Source: Streptomyces sp. adm13(2018)
Lineage (GTDB): Bacteria > Actinomycetota > Actinomycetes > Streptomycetales > Streptomycetaceae
DNA length: 51,495 nt
Assembly: GCF_008042145.1 (NCBI RefSeq)
Contig: NZ_RDBH01000129.1
Location: forward strand, 1,550,134 to 1,601,628
Direction of reading: 5' to 3'
Every line of letters starts with the position of its first letter. Position 1 is the stretch's first letter. Positions 4,423 to 38,996 of this stretch are shown in pieces. The translations under genes were made by a program, and so were the position numbers. Under the pieces are notes generated by a model. That model searched no databases. It was not told where the DNA came from and saw only the letters and a list, made by a program, of their open reading frames with translations.

Positions 4423-5112
4423 ATGGCCACGCTGATCCTCGTCCGGCACGGACGCTCCACCGCTAACACCTCCGGGGTCCTCGCCGGGCGCACCCCCGGG
4501 ATCTCCCTCGACGAGCGGGGCACCGCGCAGGCCGCCGCGCTCCCCGGGCGGCTCGCGGACGTGCCGCTCGCCGCCGTCGTCTCCAGCCCCCTCCAGCGCT
4601 GCCGGGAGACCGTACGGCCCCTCCTGGACGCCCGCCCGGACCTCCCGCTGCACGTCGAGGACCGGATCAACGAGTGCGACTACGGCGACTGGTCGGGCCG
4701 GAAGCTGGCCGAGCTCAACGACGAACCCCTGATGGAGGTCGTCCAGGCGCACGCCTCCGCCGCGGCCTTCCCCGGCGGCGAGTCCATGCGCGCGATGCAG
4801 GCCCGCGCCGTCGACGCGGTCCACGACTGGAACGCGCGGATCGAGGCCGAGCACGGCGAGGACGCCGCCTACGTCATGTGCTCGCACGGGGACATCGTCA
4901 AGTCGGTGGTGGCGGACGCCCTCGGCCTCCACCTCGACCTCTTCCAGCGCCTGCACGTCGACCCCTGCTCGGTCACCGTCATCCGCTACACGCGCCTGCG
5001 CCCCTTCCTCGTCCGCCTCGGCGACACCGGCGACTTCGCGGGCTTCGCCCCGCGCGAGCACCCGGACACCAGGGGGACCGCCGAGGTCGGTGGTGGTGCG
5101 GGCGCACCGTGA
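4423..5112 (+). CDS. Histidine-phosphatase-fold probable phosphomutase (MSMEG_4193 type)
   Basis: The 229-residue protein has the RHG signature at residues 8-10 (LILVRHGRSTAN), Arg59 (SPLQRCRET), Glu84 (NECDYGDWSG) and a second catalytic His155 (VMCSHGDIVK). The full active site is therefore present, with His9 forming the phospho-histidine. It is the first member of an actinobacterial gene trio (phosphomutase, DUF3090, PI-kinase-like protein) that follows directly here in the same orientation. That context led curators to suggest a phosphomutase rather than a simple phosphatase; the substrate is unknown. ATG 4423 lacks a ribosome-binding site and has a -10-like hexamer 7 nt upstream, so it is probably leaderless. 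Confidence 0.9.
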   Translation: MATLILVRHGRSTANTSGVLAGRTPGISLDERGTAQAAALPGRLADVPLAAVVSSPLQRCRETVRPLLDARPDLPLHVEDRINECDYGDWSGRKLAELNDEPLMEVVQAHASAAAFPGGESMRAMQARAVDAVHDWNARIEAEHGEDAAYVMCSHGDIVKSVVADALGLHLDLFQRLHVDPCSVTVIRYTRLRPFLVRLGDTGDFAGFAPREHPDTRGTAEVGGGAGAP

Positions 5113-5180
5113 TCGCTTCGCGCAGTAGGGTGGACGCGCCGCCGTAGTACGACTGTCGAGACGCAAGGGAGCCGGGAAAC

Positions 5181-5771
5181 GTGTCCCGTCAGGTGTTCCT
5201 CTACGACCCACCGGAGCGTTTCGTGGCCGGTACGGTCGGGCTGCCTGGCCGCCGTACGTTCTTCCTCCAGGCGTCCGCCGCCGGCCGGGTCACCAGCGTG
5301 GCCCTGGAGAAGACCCAGGTCGCCGCGCTCGCTGAGCGGATGGATGAACTCCTCGACGAGGTCGTCCGCCGCACCGGGGGCAACGCCCCGGTCCCCGCCG
5401 TCGCGCCCGCCGAGGTGGCCGACACCGCCCCCCTCGACGTACCCGTCGACGAGGAGTTCCGGGTCGGCACCATGGCGCTCGCCTGGGACGGCGAGGAGCA
5501 GCGCATGATCGTCGAGGCGCAGGCGCTCGTCGAGCTCGACGCGGACTCCGAGGAGGACCTCGCCGAGGCCGAGGAGCGGCTGCTCCAGGACGAGGAGAAC
5601 GGCCCGCCGATGCTCCGGGTCCGGCTCAGCGGCGCCCAGGCCCGTGCCTTCGCCAAGCGGGCCCTGGACGTGGTCAACGCCGGCCGCCCGCCCTGCCCGC
5701 TGTGCAGCCTGCCCCTCGACCCCGAGGGCCACGTCTGCCCGCGCCAGAACGGATACCGCCGCGGAGCATGA
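5181..5771 (+). CDS. DUF3090-family protein with C-terminal zinc-ribbon tail
   Basis: The 196-residue cytoplasmic protein starts with GTG 5181 behind AAGGGAG and reads MSRQVFLYDPPERFVAGTVG. The N-terminal two thirds are a compact beta-rich domain with an acidic helix (DSEEDLAEAEERLLQDEE). The tail CPLCSLPLDPEGHVCPRQNGY has the Cys-x2-Cys...His-x-Cys arrangement of a zinc knuckle. It is the second member of the phosphomutase/DUF3090/kinase trio. Its TGA overlaps the ATG of the kinase (ATGA at 5768-5771), implying coupled translation and possibly a complex. The biochemical function is unknown. Confidence 0.88.
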   Translation: MSRQVFLYDPPERFVAGTVGLPGRRTFFLQASAAGRVTSVALEKTQVAALAERMDELLDEVVRRTGGNAPVPAVAPAEVADTAPLDVPVDEEFRVGTMALAWDGEEQRMIVEAQALVELDADSEEDLAEAEERLLQDEENGPPMLRVRLSGAQARAFAKRALDVVNAGRPPCPLCSLPLDPEGHVCPRQNGYRRGA

Positions 5772-6574
5772 GCAGCAGCCCCCCGAGCCCGCCGGACACC
5801 GAGCTGCTCGCCCGCGGTGAGCTGACCGTACGCGGCAGGGTCCGCGAGGCCTCCAACGCCGTCCTGTACTGCTCCGTCGTCCACGAGGGCAGGGAGGCGG
5901 CCTGCGTGTACAAGCCGGTCGCGGGCGAGGCGCCGCTGTGGGACTTCCCCGACGGCACCCTGGCCCAGCGCGAGGTCGCCGCGTACGAGATCTCCGAGGC
6001 GACCGGCTGGGGCCTGGTCCCGCCGACCGTGCTCCGCGACGGGCCGTACGGGGAGGGCATGGTCCAGCTGTGGATCGAGGCCGACCCCGGCGCGCGCCTG
6101 CTCGCCCTGACCGAGGGCGACGAGGCCGAAGAAGGCTGGAAGGCCGTCGGGCTCGCCCAGGTGGACGAGGACCGCACCGCGCTGCTCGTCCACGCGGACA
6201 CCCCCGAACTGCGGCGGCTGGCCGTTCTGGACGCCGTCATCAACAACGCCGACCGGAAGGGCGGGCACCTGCTGCCGGCCCCCGGGGGCCACCTGTACGG
6301 CATCGACCACGGGGTCACCTTCCACGTCGACGACAAGCTGCGCACCCTGCTGTGGGGCTGGGCGGGCGAGAAGCTGCCCGAGGAGGCGACCGGGGTCCTC
6401 GACGTCCTCGACCGCTCGCTGGCCCCCGGGGAGCCTCTCGCCACCCGTCTGGCGGAACTGCTCACCGAGGCCGAGGTGACGGCCGTACGCGGGCGCGTGG
6501 CGGCGCTGCGGAGCTCGGGACGGCATCCGGAGCCCTCGGGGCAGTGGCCGTCGATCCCGTGGCCGCCGGTCTGA
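5768..6574 (+). CDS. HipA/PI-kinase-like putative kinase (SCO1664 family)
   Basis: The 268-residue protein shows the core of the PI3/4-kinase and HipA-like kinase fold. There is a candidate ATP lysine K49 ([10 protein letters not shown]) and a glutamate in [12 protein letters not shown]. The catalytic loop [16 protein letters not shown] holds Asp155, Asn160, Asp162 and His167, and GIDHG supplies the metal-binding Asp180 (DFG equivalent). All expected catalytic residues are present, so an active small-molecule or protein kinase is plausible. It is the third member of the actinobacterial trio and is translationally coupled to DUF3090 (4-nt overlap). mshC follows after 160 nt. The substrate is unknown; function is inferred from motifs only. 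Confidence 0.85.
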
Positions 6575-6579
6575 CCGGA

Positions 6580-6593
6580 CCGAAACGTTTCGG
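6580..6593. promoter_or_regulatory. 14-bp perfect palindrome downstream of the kinase gene
   Basis: CCGAAACGTTTCGG starts 5 nt after the kinase stop codon and 142 nt before mshC. The core CGAAACGTTTCG resembles operators of LacI-type regulators. It is too short and lacks a loop for a terminator. Confidence 0.4.
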
Positions 6594-6734: not shown

Positions 6735-7964
6735 ATGCATGCCTGGCCCGCTTCTGAGGTCCCCGCCCTTCCCGGCAAGGGCCGCGACCTCCGGATCCAC
6801 GACACCGCGACCGGCGGACGAGTCACCCTCGCCCCCGGCCCCGTCGCCCGTATCTACGTCTGCGGCATCACGCCGTACGACGCGACCCACATGGGTCACG
6901 CGGCGACCTACAACGCGTTCGACCTCGTTCAGCGCGTGTGGCTCGACACCAAGCGGCAGGTGCACTACGTCCAGAACGTCACGGACGTGGACGACCCGCT
7001 CCTGGAGCGCGCGATCCGCGACGGCGTCGACTGGATCGGCCTCGCCGAGCGGGAGACCGCCCTGTTCCGCGAGGACATGACCGCCCTGCGGATGCTGCCC
7101 CCGCAGCACTACATCGGCGCCGTCGAGGCCATACCCGGCATCGTCCCGCTGGTCGAGCGCCTCCGGGACTCCGGGGCCGCCTACGAGCTCGAAGGGGACG
7201 TCTACTTCTCCGTCGACGCCGACCCGCACTTCGGGCAGGTCTCGCACTACACCACCGAGCTGATGCGCCATCTCTCCGCCGAGCGCGGCGGGGACCCGGA
7301 CCGCCCGGGCAAGAAGAACCCGCTCGACCCGATGCTCTGGATGGCCGCCCGCGAGGGCGAGCCGAGCTGGGACGGCGCCAGCCTCGGCGCCGGCCGCCCC
7401 GGCTGGCACATCGAGTGCGTCGCCATCGCGCTCGACCACCTCGGCATGGGCTTCGACGTGCAGGGCGGCGGCTCCGACCTGATCTTCCCCCACCACGAGA
7501 TGGGCGCCTCCCACGCCCAGGCCCTCACCGGCGAGTTCCCCATGGCGAAGGCGTACGTCCACGCCGGCATGGTCGGCCTCGACGGCGAGAAGATGTCGAA
7601 GTCCCGGGGCAACCTGGTCTTCGTCTCCAAGCTCCGCCGCGACGGCGTCGACCCGGCCGCCATCCGGCTCGCGCTGCTCTCGCACCGCTACCGCGACGAC
7701 TGGGAGTGGACCGACCAGGTCCTCCAGGACGCCGTGGAGCGGCTCGACCGCTGGCGGGCCGCCGTGTCGCGCCCCGACGGCCCGTCCGCCGACGCGCTCG
7801 TCGAGGAGCTCCGCGACGCCCTGTCCGACGACCTCGACACCCCCACCGCGCTCGCCGCGGTCGACCGCTGGGCCGCGCTCCAGACGGACGGGGGCGGCAC
7901 GGACGACTCCGCGCCCGGACTCGTCTCCCGCGCCGTCGACGCGCTGCTGGGTGTGGCGCTGTAG
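6735..7964 (+). CDS. mshC: MshC, cysteine:1D-myo-inosityl glucosamine ligase (mycothiol biosynthesis)
   Basis: The 409-residue protein is a CysRS paralogue that ATP-dependently joins cysteine to GlcN-Ins, the third step of mycothiol synthesis. Visible class-I synthetase motifs are the HIGH equivalent THMGH ([15 protein letters not shown]) and the KMSKS loop ([12 protein letters not shown]). The zinc ligand Cys of YVCGITPYD and the ECVAIA and [11 protein letters not shown] segments are also present. It lacks the C-terminal anticodon-binding extension of true CysRS (about 460 residues), which separates the two. ATG 6735 ([18 protein letters not shown]) matches the usual MshC N-terminus; an in-frame ATG at 6624 would add residues unlike any family member. 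It lies next to the phosphomutase/kinase trio. Confidence 0.96.
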
Positions 7965-8160: not shown

Positions 8161-9339
8161 CTAGGCGCCGGTGCCGCCCTCGGGGCGACCGTCCGCCTCG
8201 GAGTCGCTGTCGGTCTCCTGGCCCGCGTCCGCGTCCGCTTCCGCGTCCGTGCTCGCGCTCCCGCCCGGGTCTGCGCCCGGCTCGGGGCTCGTCTCCGGAG
8301 CGTCCTCGGCGGCGCTCTCCGATGCCGCCGGAGCGTCCGGCCTCTCCGTAGCCTCGGCTTCGGCGGCCTCCGCGCCCGGGATCGCCTCGGGGCCCGGCTG
8401 CTCGGGCTTCGGAGGGCGCGTGCGGCCGGCGCCGGTGTCCCGCAGGAACGGCGTGTCGCCGCCCTCCATCGCCACCCCGGGGCCACCCGGCCCCGTGCCC
8501 GGCTCACGACGCCGCAGGTACCGCTCGAACTCGCGGGCGATCGCCTCGCCCGAGGCCTCCGGCAACTCCGCGGTGTCCCGGGCCTCCTCGAGCGTCTGCA
8601 CGTACTCGGCGACCTCGCTGTCCTCCGCGGCCAGCTGGTCCACCCCGACCTGCCAGGCCCGCGCGTCCTCGGGCAGCTCGCCCAGCGGGATGCGCAGCCC
8701 GATCAGGTCCTCCAGACGGTTGAGGAGGGCCAGGGTCGCCTTCGGGTTCGGCGGCTGCGACACGTAGTGCGGCACCGCCGCCCACAGGCTGACCGCCGGC
8801 ACGCCCGCGTGGGTGCACGCCTCCTGGAGGATGCCCACGATGCCCGTCGGACCCTCGTACCGGGTCTCCTCCAGGTCCATCGTGCGCGCCAGGTCCGGGT
8901 CGGAGGTCACACCGCTGACCGGGACCGGCCGGGTGTGCGGGGTGTCCCCGAGCAGCGCGCCCAGGATCACGACCATCTCCACACCCAGCTCGTGGGCGAA
9001 GGCGAGGATCTCGTTGCAGAAGGAGCGCCAGCGCATCGACGGCTCGATCCCGCGCACGAGCACCAGGTCCCGGGGTTTCTCGCCGCCGACCCGGACCACG
9101 GAGAGCCGGGTCGTCGGCCAGGTGATCTTCCGGACGCCGTTGTCCAGGAAGACGGTGGGCCGGTTGACCTGGAAGTCGTAGTAGTCCTCGGCGTCGAGCG
9201 CCGCGAACACCTCGCCCTTCCATTCCCGGTCGAGATGGGCGACCGCGGTGGAGGCGGCGTCGCCGGCGTCGTTCCAGCCTTCGAACGCGGCCACCATGAC
9301 CGGGTCGATCAGCTCGGGTACCCCCTCGAGCTCGATCAC
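8161..9339 (-). CDS. parJ: PAC2-family protein, ParJ-like
   Basis: The 392-residue protein has an N-terminal PAC2 domain (about residues 1-270, beginning VIELEGVPELIDPVMVAAFEGWNDAGDAAS). A long low-complexity tail follows, rich in Ala, Glu, Asp and Pro. PAC2 proteins are related to proteasome-assembly chaperone 2. In Streptomyces coelicolor the homologue next to mshC (ParJ, SCO1662) modulates ParA polymerisation during sporulation septation. The assignment rests on family and synteny from memory. GTG 9339 is the start because AAAAGGAGG lies 6 nt upstream; an in-frame GTG 13 codons earlier would bury this ribosome-binding site. The tail is the least conserved part and probably disordered. Confidence 0.85.
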   Translation of the reverse strand: MIELEGVPELIDPVMVAAFEGWNDAGDAASTAVAHLDREWKGEVFAALDAEDYYDFQVNRPTVFLDNGVRKITWPTTRLSVVRVGGEKPRDLVLVRGIEPSMRWRSFCNEILAFAHELGVEMVVILGALLGDTPHTRPVPVSGVTSDPDLARTMDLEETRYEGPTGIVGILQEACTHAGVPAVSLWAAVPHYVSQPPNPKATLALLNRLEDLIGLRIPLGELPEDARAWQVGVDQLAAEDSEVAEYVQTLEEARDTAELPEASGEAIAREFERYLRRREPGTGPGGPGVAMEGGDTPFLRDTGAGRTRPPKPEQPGPEAIPGAEAAEAEATERPDAPAASESAAEDAPETSPEPGADPGGSASTDAEADADAGQETDSDSEADGRPEGGTGA

Positions 9340-31329: not shown

Positions 31330-32841
31330 ATGACCGTACGGCGAGTAATGGGCATCGAGACGGAGTACGGGATCTCCGTCCCGGGACACCCGAACGCCAA
31401 TGCCATGCTCACCTCGTCCCAGATCGTCAACGCCTACGCGGCGGCGATGCACCGGGCGCGCCGCGCCCGCTGGGACTTCGAGGAGGAGAACCCGCTGCGG
31501 GACGCCCGCGGCTTCGACCTCGCCCGCGAGGTCGCCGACTCCAGCCAGCTCACCGACGAGGACATCGGCCTCGCCAACGTGATCCTCACCAACGGGGCCC
31601 GCCTCTACGTGGACCACGCCCACCCCGAGTACAGCTCGCCCGAGATCACCAATCCGCGCGACGCCGTCCTCTGGGACAAGGCCGGCGAGCGGATCATGGC
31701 GGAGGCGGCCGTGCGCGCCGCCCAGCTCCCCGGGGCCCAGCCGATCCACCTCTACAAGAACAACACCGACAACAAGGGCGCCTCCTACGGCACGCACGAG
31801 AACTACCTGATGAAGCGGGAGACCCCCTTCTCGGACATTGTGCGCCACCTGACTCCCTTCTTCGTCTCACGCCAGGTCGTGACCGGCGCGGGACGGGTCG
31901 GCATCGGCCAGGACGGCCGGGAGCACGGCTTCCAGATCAGCCAGCGCGCCGACTACTTCGAGGTCGAGGTCGGCCTGGAGACCACCCTCAAGCGGCCCAT
32001 CATCAACACCCGCGACGAACCGCACGCGGACGCGGAGCGGTACCGCCGGCTGCACGTGATCATCGGCGACGCCAACCTCTCCGAGATCTCCACCTACCTC
32101 AAGCTCGGCACCACGGCCCTGGTCCTCTCGATGATCGAGGACGGTTTCATCACCGTGGACCTCGCCCTCGACCAGCCCGTACGGACCCTCCACCAGGTCT
32201 CGCACGACCCGACCCTCCAGTACCTGGTCTCGCTCCGCAGCGGCCGGACCCTGACCGCGGTCCAGCTCCAGATGGAGTACTTCGAGCTGGCCAGGAAGTA
32301 CGTGGAGGAGCGGTACGGCGCGGACGCCGACGAGCAGACCAAGGACGTCCTGGTCCGCTGGGAGGACACGCTCAACCGGCTCGAGAACAACCCCATGAGC
32401 CTGGCCGGCGAGCTCGACTGGATCGCCAAGCGGGAGCTCATGGAGGGCTACCGGCGGCGGGACGACCTGGACTGGGACGCCGCCCGGCTGCACCTCGTGG
32501 ACCTCCAGTACGCGGACGTACGCCCCGAGAAGGGCCTCTACAACCGTCTGGTGGCCCGCGGACGCATGAAGCGGCTCCTGGACGAGACCGAGGTGACGCG
32601 CGCGCAGACGGCGCCCCCGGAGGACACCAGGGCCTACTTCCGGGGCCGCTGTCTGGAGCAGTACGCCGACGACGTCGCCGCGGCCTCCTGGGACTCGGTG
32701 ATCTTCGACCTGCCCGGCCGCGACTCGCTCCAGCGCGTCCCGACCATGGAGCCGCTGCGGGGCACCAAGGCCCATGTGCAGTCGCTCCTGGACCGGTGCA
32801 GGACCGCCGAGGAACTGGTGCGAGTGCTGTCCGGCGGCTGA
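31330..32841 (+). CDS. dop: Depupylase/deamidase of Pup (Dop)
   Basis: The 503-residue glutamine-synthetase-like enzyme removes Pup from lysines, and in species with Pup-Gln also deamidates it. The ATP/Mg site begins at MGIETEYG (7-14). The Dop-specific insertion (about 38-80, [20 protein letters not shown]) separates it from PafA. The catalytic Asp95 ([16 protein letters not shown]) and [37 protein letters not shown] are conserved. ATG 31330 follows AAGGAGG. Since this Pup already ends in Glu, depupylation is the expected main role. Confidence 0.97.
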
Positions 32842-37634: not shown

Positions 37635-38996
37635 ATGGACCGCCGCATTTTCGGGCTGGAGAACGAGTACGGCGTCACGTGCACGTTCAGGGGACAGCGC
37701 CGACTGTCTCCTGACGAAGTGGCGCGCTACCTCTTCCGCCGTGTCGTGTCATGGGGCCGCAGCAGCAATGTCTTCCTGCGGAACGGCGCCCGCCTGTACC
37801 TGGACGTGGGATCGCATCCGGAATACGCCACACCGGAATGCGACAACGTGACCGAACTGGTCACCCACGACAAGGCCGGCGAGCGCATTCTCGAGGGCCT
37901 GCTCGTCGACGCCGAACGCCGCCTGCACGAGGAGGGAATCGCGGGCGACGTCTACCTCTTCAAGAACAACACCGACTCGGCCGGAAACTCCTACGGCTGC
38001 CACGAGAACTATCTCGTCGCCCGCCACGGCGAGTTCTCCCGGCTGGCGGACATCCTCATTCCGTTCCTGGTCACCCGCCAGCTGATCTGCGGCGCGGGAA
38101 AGGTCCTCCAGACCCCGCGCGGCGCGGTGTTCTGCGTCTCCCAGCGTGCCGAGCACATCTGGGAGGGCGTCAGCTCCGCGACCACCCGCTCCCGCCCCAT
38201 CATCAACACCCGTGACGAGCCGCACGCCGACGCCGAGCGCTACCGCCGGCTCCACGTCATCGTCGGCGACTCGAACATGTCCGAGACGACCATGCTCCTC
38301 AAGGTCGGCGCCACCGACCTGGTGCTCCGCATGATCGAGGCCGGCACGGTGATGCGCGACCTGACCCTGGAGAACCCGATCCGGGCCATCCGCGAGGTCA
38401 GCCACGACATCACCGGCCAGCGCAAGGTCCGGCTCGCCAGCGGCCGTGAGGCCTCCGCCCTGGAGGTCCAGCGCGAGTACTACGAGAAGGCCGTCGACTT
38501 CGTCGACCGCCGGGGGATCCGGAACGGCACCGTGGCCCAGGTCCTGGAGCTGTGGGGCCGTACGCTCGACGCCATCGAGAGCGAGCGCCTCGACCGGATC
38601 GAGACCGAGATCGACTGGGTGATGAAGCACCGGCTCATCGAGCGCTACCGGGCCAAGCACAACATGACCATGTCGAACCCGAGGGTCGCGCAGATAGACC
38701 TCGCCTACCACGACATCCACCGCCGTCGTGGTCTCTACTACCTGCTGCAGAAGAACGGCCAGGCGGCCCGGATCTGCAACGACCTGAAGATCTTCGAGGG
38801 CAAGTCGGTGCCCCCGCAGACCACCAGGGCCCGCCTCCGCGGTGACTTCATCCGCCGCGCCCAGGAGCAGCGACGGGACTTCACCGTCGACTGGGTGCAC
38901 CTCAAGCTGAACGACCAGGCGCAGCGCACGGTGTTGTGCAAGGACCCGTTCCGCTCGGTCGACGACCGCGTCGAAAAGCTGATCGCCGGAATGTAG
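37635..38996 (+). CDS. pafA: Pup-protein ligase PafA
   Basis: The 453-residue glutamine-synthetase-like ligase phosphorylates the C-terminal Glu of Pup and forms the isopeptide bond to substrate lysines. The Mg/ATP site starts at [10 protein letters not shown] (Glu9). The catalytic Asp57 is in [37 protein letters not shown] and [27 protein letters not shown] are shared with Dop, but the Dop insertion is absent. The C-terminal domain ends [15 protein letters not shown] 37635 has no ribosome-binding site and an upstream -10 motif, so it is probably leaderless. It is separated from prcA by the LacI/MFS pair. Confidence 0.98.

Follow-up and report, generated by a model that had tools for sequence, protein, structure and literature searches.

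What do three neighbouring genes of Streptomyces sp. adm13(2018), coding for a histidine-phosphatase-fold enzyme, a DUF3090 protein and a kinase-like protein, do together? The trio is located on the forward strand of a stretch of 51,495 nucleotides of contig NZ_RDBH01000129.1 (hereafter the window), between positions 4423 and 6574. The first gene (4423-5112, 229 amino acids) encodes a histidine-phosphatase-fold enzyme of the MSMEG_4193 family (TIGR03848), the second (5181-5771, GTG start, 196 amino acids) the DUF3090 protein (TIGR03847) and the third (5768-6574 including the stop, ATG start, 268 amino acids) a kinase-like protein of the SCO1664 family (TIGR03843), referred to below as the kinase. 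The ATG of the kinase gene (5768-5770) and the TGA of the DUF3090 gene (5769-5771) share an ATGA overlap of 4 nt (5768-5771). The mycothiol ligase gene mshC (6735-7964, forward strand), a neighbour outside the module, begins 160 nt downstream of the kinase gene, and its product scores 681.2 bits against TIGR03447 (NCBIfam cut-off 485.1). The original prediction had described three same-strand genes with their motifs, the 4-nt overlap and the adjoining mshC, and all of these were confirmed, with the families well over the NCBIfam cut-offs.

The reading favoured here, tentatively and with a little less than an even chance of being right, is that the trio forms a soluble cytoplasmic module for reversible phosphorylation, with the kinase as hub, DUF3090 as partner and the phosphatase as eraser. 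The SCO1664 protein would be a small ATP-dependent kinase from the branch of the protein-kinase-like fold that holds the type II phosphatidylinositol 4-kinases (PI4KII), Fam20 and HipA. It would phosphorylate a hydroxyl group of a soluble substrate, a protein or a small molecule being likelier than a membrane lipid. DUF3090 would be a dedicated partner of the kinase, which presents or binds the substrate or is itself the substrate, and the histidine phosphatase would take the phosphate off again. Family membership, intact catalytic residues, gene order, tight spacing, co-occurrence and predicted folds were observed as described below; from these we infer that the kinase is active, that the two enzymes oppose each other and that a complex is formed, as well as the probable nature of the substrate. 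A phosphate cycle had been suggested before. It is plausible because a kinase-like protein with intact catalytic residues and a PI4KII/Fam20/HipA-type fold pairs with a phosphatase, while the mutase part of that suggestion is less supported.

Conservation and distribution of the trio

Tallies for Actinomycetota come from one drawn sample of 149 genomes. Loci outside this phylum were taken from a GTDB contig scan, as the best 80 of 585 matches to a divergent query (46 Chloroflexota and 3 Rokubacteria by name, some of the phylum placements being our own assumption), so that proportions among them do not amount to a census. Of 61 loci, made up of the window and 60 that were fetched, 58 have all three genes in the same order on one strand, and because order and strand are shared so widely the arrangement is not a matter of chance. 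The exceptions are L080, a phosphatase-kinase copy, and L089 and L090, where the contig ends before the kinase is reached. Every one of the 60 fetched loci, like the window, has a phosphatase gene ahead of DUF3090 or of the kinase. Spacing, counted from the stop codon of one gene to where the profile match of the next begins, was at most 60 nt between phosphatase and DUF3090 in 100 of 115 loci and between DUF3090 and kinase in 104 of 130 loci. The kinase was present in 64 of the 149 Actinomycetota genomes and DUF3090 in exactly the same 64; TIGR03848 was over its cut-off in 51 of the 149. The window proteins exceed all three curated NCBIfam cut-offs and are encoded in the gene order of their relatives, and the window trio shows no departure from this known set.

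The 80 named loci comprise 55 full trios, 17 pairs of DUF3090 and kinase, 4 pairs of phosphatase and kinase and 4 kinase genes alone. The kinase is present in all 80 by construction, because it served to find the loci, and in two of the 17 pairs (L111 and L167) the upstream sequence is too short to show a phosphatase gene. The kinase can occur with either partner alone and is separable from each, since both two-gene forms were found. In the C. glutamicum control the kinase was matched but DUF3090 was not. The Chloroflexota genomes were picked for having the kinase, so that they offer no trio-less baseline, and many are metagenome-assembled genomes (MAGs) of unknown completeness.

The original prediction regarded the trio as a conserved but uncharacterised Actinobacterial set. 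It is indeed a known and unsolved gene set, but it also occurs outside the Actinobacteria, on Chloroflexota contigs. Conserved in two phyla, including Streptomyces-like genomes, the trio has no assigned function that we could find. Mycobacterium presumably also carries it, and we take Rv2135c-Rv2134c-Rv2133c, from the gene order, to be the trio of M. tuberculosis. A mobile or defence role was rejected: padloc gave no match, and kinase relatives turned up in a single phage record among 50,697 (without annotation, of faecal origin) and in two plasmid records among 72,556, of which one is 11.9 Mb long.

The two-gene form of phosphatase and kinase was seen in several places. L080 (G008:C17:145000-162000) is a second, phosphatase-kinase copy that lacks DUF3090, and its genome carries a full trio besides; the form is found in Arthrobacter, Kocuria and Citricoccus loci as well (L109, L129, L143, L152).

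The kinase

The window kinase scores 362 bits against TIGR03843 (cut-off 172.4). Residues were compared in two alignment sets. The first holds 60 kinase, 61 DUF3090 and 62 phosphatase rows, with the window entered twice and the L056 kinase row a fragment; the second holds 80 kinase, 73 DUF3090 and 57 phosphatase rows, with the window entered once (kinase). The L094 kinase (split frame) and the L166 DUF3090 from A3 (over-long) were left out. K49, E69, D162, R163, K164, H167 and D180 are invariant in all kinase rows (60/60 and 80/80). Four of these residues lie in the catalytic loop NNADRKGGH (residues 159-167, positions 6242-6268), and D180 lies in the metal-binding loop GIDHG (residues 178-182, positions 6299-6313), the equivalent of DFG. 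The conserved C-terminal tail PWPPV with the stop spans positions 6557-6574; its P264-W265-P266 is present in 60/60 rows of the first set and, of the 80 rows in the second, in 78 (P), 75 (W) and 78 (P).

The window kinase misses the cut-off of PF00454 (PI3/PI4 kinase; 18.2 vs 27.1 bits). Of the 80 kinase alignment members, 73 match this family at E<=0.01 (best 1.7e-11), and the Lys, Glu, catalytic Asp and DFG-type Asp of PI3/PI4 kinases are all present (K49, E69, D162, D180). A profile search of solved structures gave whole-sequence E values of 8e-6 for PI4K2B, 7.5e-5 for FAM20A, 0.001 for PI4K2A and 0.033 for FAM20C. Single-stretch matches in this search were weaker (best E 0.022), and single-sequence searches of solved structures gave no useful match. 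An AlphaFold2 model of the kinase reached a predicted local distance difference test score (pLDDT) of 85.7 and a predicted template modelling score (pTM) of 0.86. Residues 113-142 were poorly modelled; they fall within an insert that two of the 13 rows compared, those of the window and L085, have in common. Foldseek matched the model to PI4KII at E 7.4e-8, with a template modelling score (TM) of 0.54 by query length. VIA-align gave Z 18.8 for PI4KII-beta (223 residues, 3.7 Å, 20% identity), Z 15.3 for Fam20 (218 residues, 3.5 Å), 14.0 for CtkA and 10.6 for HipA.

Type II PI4-kinases (PI4K2A/B) are the best fold match, and their D-R catalytic loop and the following ID(H/N) loop correspond to those of the kinase. 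However, the catalytic-loop Asn of these enzymes (DRGNDN) is His167 in the SCO1664 family (alignment to PI4K2; His in 60/60 and 80/80 rows), besides the score of the window kinase under the PF00454 cut-off. A cysteine-rich palmitoylation motif is typical of type II PI4-kinases, whereas the two cysteines of the window kinase stand apart and form no such cluster, which argues for a soluble substrate. Fam20 kinases are alike in fold (Z 13.4-15.3 over 213-222 residues) and by the profile match to FAM20A. Fam20 proteins are secreted protein or xylose kinases, in contrast to the bare, cytoplasmic-type kinase domain encoded in an operon here. HipA and CtkA share the fold too, and 14 of the 80 relatives match HipA_2 at E<=0.01. 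Unlike these systems, the trio has a housekeeping-like distribution and no HipB-like DNA-binding antitoxin gene was found alongside it, the neighbours being DUF3090, the histidine phosphatase and mshC; padloc gave no match to the trio. As judged from the models, the resemblance of the SCO1664 protein to type II PI4-kinases and Fam20 is a new prediction, and so is His167 as a feature that appears, from the alignments, to be particular to the SCO1664 family. Should the kinase prove active, it would represent a large and nearly unstudied bacterial family of PI4KII/Fam20-like kinases.

The PWP tail was considered as a docking site for DUF3090. This idea was weakened, because the phosphatase-kinase copy L080 retains the tail without an adjoining DUF3090; the genome of L080 has DUF3090 in its other trio copy, which limits the argument.

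The DUF3090 protein

DUF3090 of the window scores 259.5 bits against TIGR03847 (cut-off 117.25) and 229.1 against PF11290 (cut-off 27). Invariant or nearly invariant residues in the family are G20, G23, R25, F27, E43, K44, Q46 and R169. A C-terminal zinc knuckle, C172-x2-C175...H184-x-C186, is encoded at positions 5694-5738. Its residues are each present in 59-60 of the 61 rows of the first set. Of the 73 rows in the second set, 59 have a complete knuckle and 14 an incomplete one, and it is cleanly deleted in L112, L125 and L146. The knuckle was rejected as the core of DUF3090 because of these 14 rows. A published table lists DUF3090 as a putative metal-binding protein that occurs in at least 85% of the genomes of its lineage (PMC9425974).

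The AlphaFold2 model of DUF3090 (pLDDT 88.7, pTM 0.81) shows a beta4-alpha unit, followed by another unit for which three strands and a helix are listed. The profiles of the two halves, compared with each other, scored 22.1, whereas 60 column shuffles averaged 10.1 and reached 19.1 at most; an unfiltered comparison with HHalign gave a score of 15.7, P 0.0047 and a probability of 3%. PUR-alpha (repeats I-II) was the top match of the model in VIA-align, with five rows at Z 8.8-9.3 over 109-114 residues and 3.2-3.8 Å (best row Z 9.3, 113 residues, 3.2 Å). The next non-PUR row had Z 6.5, and Whirly and guide-RNA-binding chains had 5.2-5.5. In PUR proteins a repeat is beta4-alpha and two repeats form a domain (PMC2954813), a topology with which the predicted two-repeat alpha/beta fold of DUF3090 is compatible; DUF3090 differs by its extra C-terminal zinc knuckle, and no sequence-profile match to these domains was seen. 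The Z of 9.3 is a lead only, because by the aligner's own notes Z 7-8 is usual for models that Foldseek does not clearly match, and the Foldseek result was weak: nothing was found below E 0.24 and no PUR chain was among the best 50. PUR or Whirly families were absent from the 25 of 39 families listed for 72 DUF3090 members and from a PDB profile search, and no match in a viral fold library fell below E 0.001. As a lead, then, the predicted DUF3090 fold resembles the nucleic-acid-binding PUR/Whirly fold, which is new here.

The histidine phosphatase

The phosphatase scores 321.8 bits against TIGR03848 (cut-off 203.85) and matches PF00300 at E 2.9e-49. In the alignment rows R8, H9, R59, E84 and H155 are conserved. 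The phospho-acceptor motif RHG (residues 8-10) is encoded at positions 4444-4452. R8 and H9 are present in 62/62 and 57/57 rows and residue 10 is G or A, with RHA instead of RHG in 24 of 62 and 20 of 57 rows. The full RHG/His155 site attributed to this enzyme earlier is present in the window protein, but RHG is not family-wide.

Rv2135c of M. tuberculosis was described as a tetrameric, weak acid phosphatase (0.23 umol/min/mg on p-nitrophenyl phosphate, Km 10.6 mM) without phosphoglycerate mutase activity (PMC3866925). Of the mutase or phosphatase role originally proposed, the phosphatase half is favoured over the mutase half for this reason.

Points that weigh against a three-part module

Several observations speak against the proposed module. 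The 24 genomes without a full adjacent trio still have DUF3090 in 20 cases, while four of them (Kocuria, two Citricoccus and one Chloroflexota) have no detectable DUF3090; that the kinase keeps its phosphatase neighbour in Kocuria and both Citricoccus, where no DUF3090 was found genome-wide, speaks for the module instead. Twenty of the 24, all Chloroflexota, have no adjacent phosphatase. A phosphatase of at least 175 bits is present elsewhere in the genome in 8 of these, and in the other 12 no orthologue-level phosphatase was found (best match <=118.4 bits), so that a phosphatase eraser would not be obligatory there, unless incomplete assemblies hide the gene. His167 in place of the catalytic-loop Asn of PI4KII means that metal binding or chemistry could differ, and other proteins of the kinase-like fold perform AMPylation or glutamylation. 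The neighbours outside the trio vary and point to no substrate. Rv2135c was reported with membrane fractions (PMC3866925). In the open-licence papers found, taken without their supplements, neither kinase activity of the SCO1664 family nor any biochemical function of DUF3090 or SCO1664 is reported.

Alternative functions

The linkage of SCO1664 with mshC is not new. Chandra and Chater described SCO1664 as 'invariably closely linked' to mycothiol genes (PMC4255298), and among our Actinomycetota genomes the 13 with mshC over its cut-off all bear the trio. By coordinates mshC adjoins the trio in 12 of these 13, a proximity seen in genomes of the class Actinomycetes, and lies on another contig in G008. 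It might be concluded that the trio makes, regulates or uses mycothiol, yet this is extremely improbable. No mshC over cut-off was found in 51 of the 64 trio-bearing Actinomycetota, nor in any of the 49 kinase-bearing Chloroflexota and Rokubacteria (0/46 for Chloroflexota alone). An MshC-like protein is encoded in further trio genomes, at 390-446 bits in fifteen and at 318-345 bits in three; 36 of the 64 have none of at least 390 bits, and several of the 49 have one of 346-404 bits. A general link to mycothiol, raised in the original prediction together with the remark that trios in many genomes without mycothiol would speak against it, is contradicted by this distribution, and mycothiol was rejected as the general function. 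A link to the Pup-proteasome system was rejected likewise. PafA/Dop matches are present in 64/64 trio genomes (62 over the PafA cut-off) vs 4/85 trio-less genomes, but WhiB, a clade-marker control, gives the same pattern (64/64 vs 5/85), so that the Pup match is a clade signal and no evidence. Outside Actinomycetota PafA is over cut-off in 3 of the 49 genomes, all Rokubacteria-titled MAGs; one more has a weaker match and 45 have none. The search for a function is hereby shifted away from mycothiol and the proteasome.

In an inositol branch, the kinase would phosphorylate inositol, an inositol phosphate or phosphatidylinositol, the phosphatase would reverse this, and the location next to mshC would reflect shared inositol chemistry. 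The closest solved folds, type II PI4-kinases, are consistent with this, as are the 12 mshC neighbours and the presence of inositol-1-phosphate synthase in 61/64 trio vs 44/85 trio-less Actinomycetota and in 36 of the 49 genomes outside (33/46 Chloroflexota, 3/3 Rokubacteria). The enrichment of the synthase with the trio is, however, confounded by clade and not obligatory. The synthase often occurs without the trio, and the kinase without a detected synthase in 3 of 64 Actinomycetota (96-97% completeness) and 13 of 46 Chloroflexota. With the membrane-anchoring cysteine cluster missing and Fam20, which would bring protein or xylose substrates, fitting nearly as well, we consider this branch unlikely. 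Doubtful too is a role in salvage or repair, in which the kinase would act on a sugar-like or vitamin-like metabolite and the phosphatase would be a separate, co-transcribed housekeeping enzyme. Such a role would suit the secondary family matches of the phosphatase, which include alpha-ribazole phosphatase and phosphoserine phosphatase, and the separable phosphatase gene in Chloroflexota, but leaves the strict pairing of kinase and DUF3090 (64/64) unexplained. Quite improbable, finally, is a nucleic-acid module across Actinomycetota and Chloroflexota, in which the PI4KII/Fam20-branch kinase would write and the phosphatase erase phosphate on RNA or an RNA-bound protein, while DUF3090, as a PUR/Whirly-like binder of RNA or single-stranded DNA, would present the nucleic acid. 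The PUR-alpha alignment, ahead of the next non-PUR row, and the internal repeat, scoring above all column shuffles, point this way. RecO or RarA/MgsA genes are found near the trio in two lineages. We take Rv2134c and MSMEG_4192, from the gene order, to be DUF3090 genes. Transposon insertions in the Rv2134c orthologue of BCG are depleted at 8 ng/ml rifampicin (log2 -1.42), and the mutants are rifampicin-sensitive (PMC11329110). ArkI/KptA offers a precedent of reversible RNA phosphorylation, its kinase having initially been annotated as a protein kinase (PMC9095486). Against it stand the Foldseek, family and PDB profile results for DUF3090 given above, the Z of 9.3 only somewhat above typical background and the HHalign probability, and the RecO and RarA/MgsA neighbours may be chance.

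The soluble module with the kinase as hub can be approached through candidate residues: K49, D162, H167, D180 and the PWP tail of the kinase, and R25, E43 and K44 of DUF3090. New as predictions are the PI4KII/Fam20-like kinase with its invariant residues and near-invariant PWP tail, the PUR/Whirly lead for DUF3090 and the losable zinc knuckle.

Neighbouring genes and minor observations

A conserved extra partner gene was looked for by clustering the neighbours of 61 and 80 loci, with Pfam naming for chosen representatives only. The candidate was rejected, as the neighbours are lineage-specific: mshC, RecO, homoserine dehydrogenase, RarA/MgsA, DUF6183, Ppx/GppA with enolase, and PII with GlnD. 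RecO is encoded downstream of the kinase gene in a lineage whose named members are titled Nitriliruptoria (L049, L051-L055, L091, L093), and Chloroflexota loci have RarA/MgsA upstream of the phosphatase gene (L102, L106, L110, L126, L128).

In M. smegmatis studies, insertions in MSMEG_4192 were enriched following dibucaine (1.49, P 0.045; PMC10127668) and MSMEG_4192 appears in a ClpC1 co-immunoprecipitation table of a study listing 370 proteins (PMC10433963).

A cysteinyl-ligase like MshC, of about 346-446 bits and below the MshC cut-off, is encoded away from the trio in G129, G016, G124, G099 and 11 more trio genomes and likewise in G172, G191, G169 and others. It may be a related ligase or MshC itself in divergent form.

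A perfect 14-bp palindrome, CCGAAACGTTTCGG, is located at 6580-6593 between the kinase stop and mshC. It presumably resembles a LacI-type operator; its 10-bp core is absent from the same-genus loci L005, L006 and L011. Elsewhere in the window, a PAC2-family (proteasome-assembly-chaperone-like) gene lies downstream of mshC on the reverse strand (8161-9129), and the forward strand carries a PafA-like gene below cut-off, probably Dop (31573-32793), and a PafA Pup ligase gene over cut-off (37641-38993). In other genomes PII genes occur within several kb of the trio (L062, L063, L066, L069, L076-L079), and so do genes for GlnD-type uridylyltransferases (L069, L076-L079).

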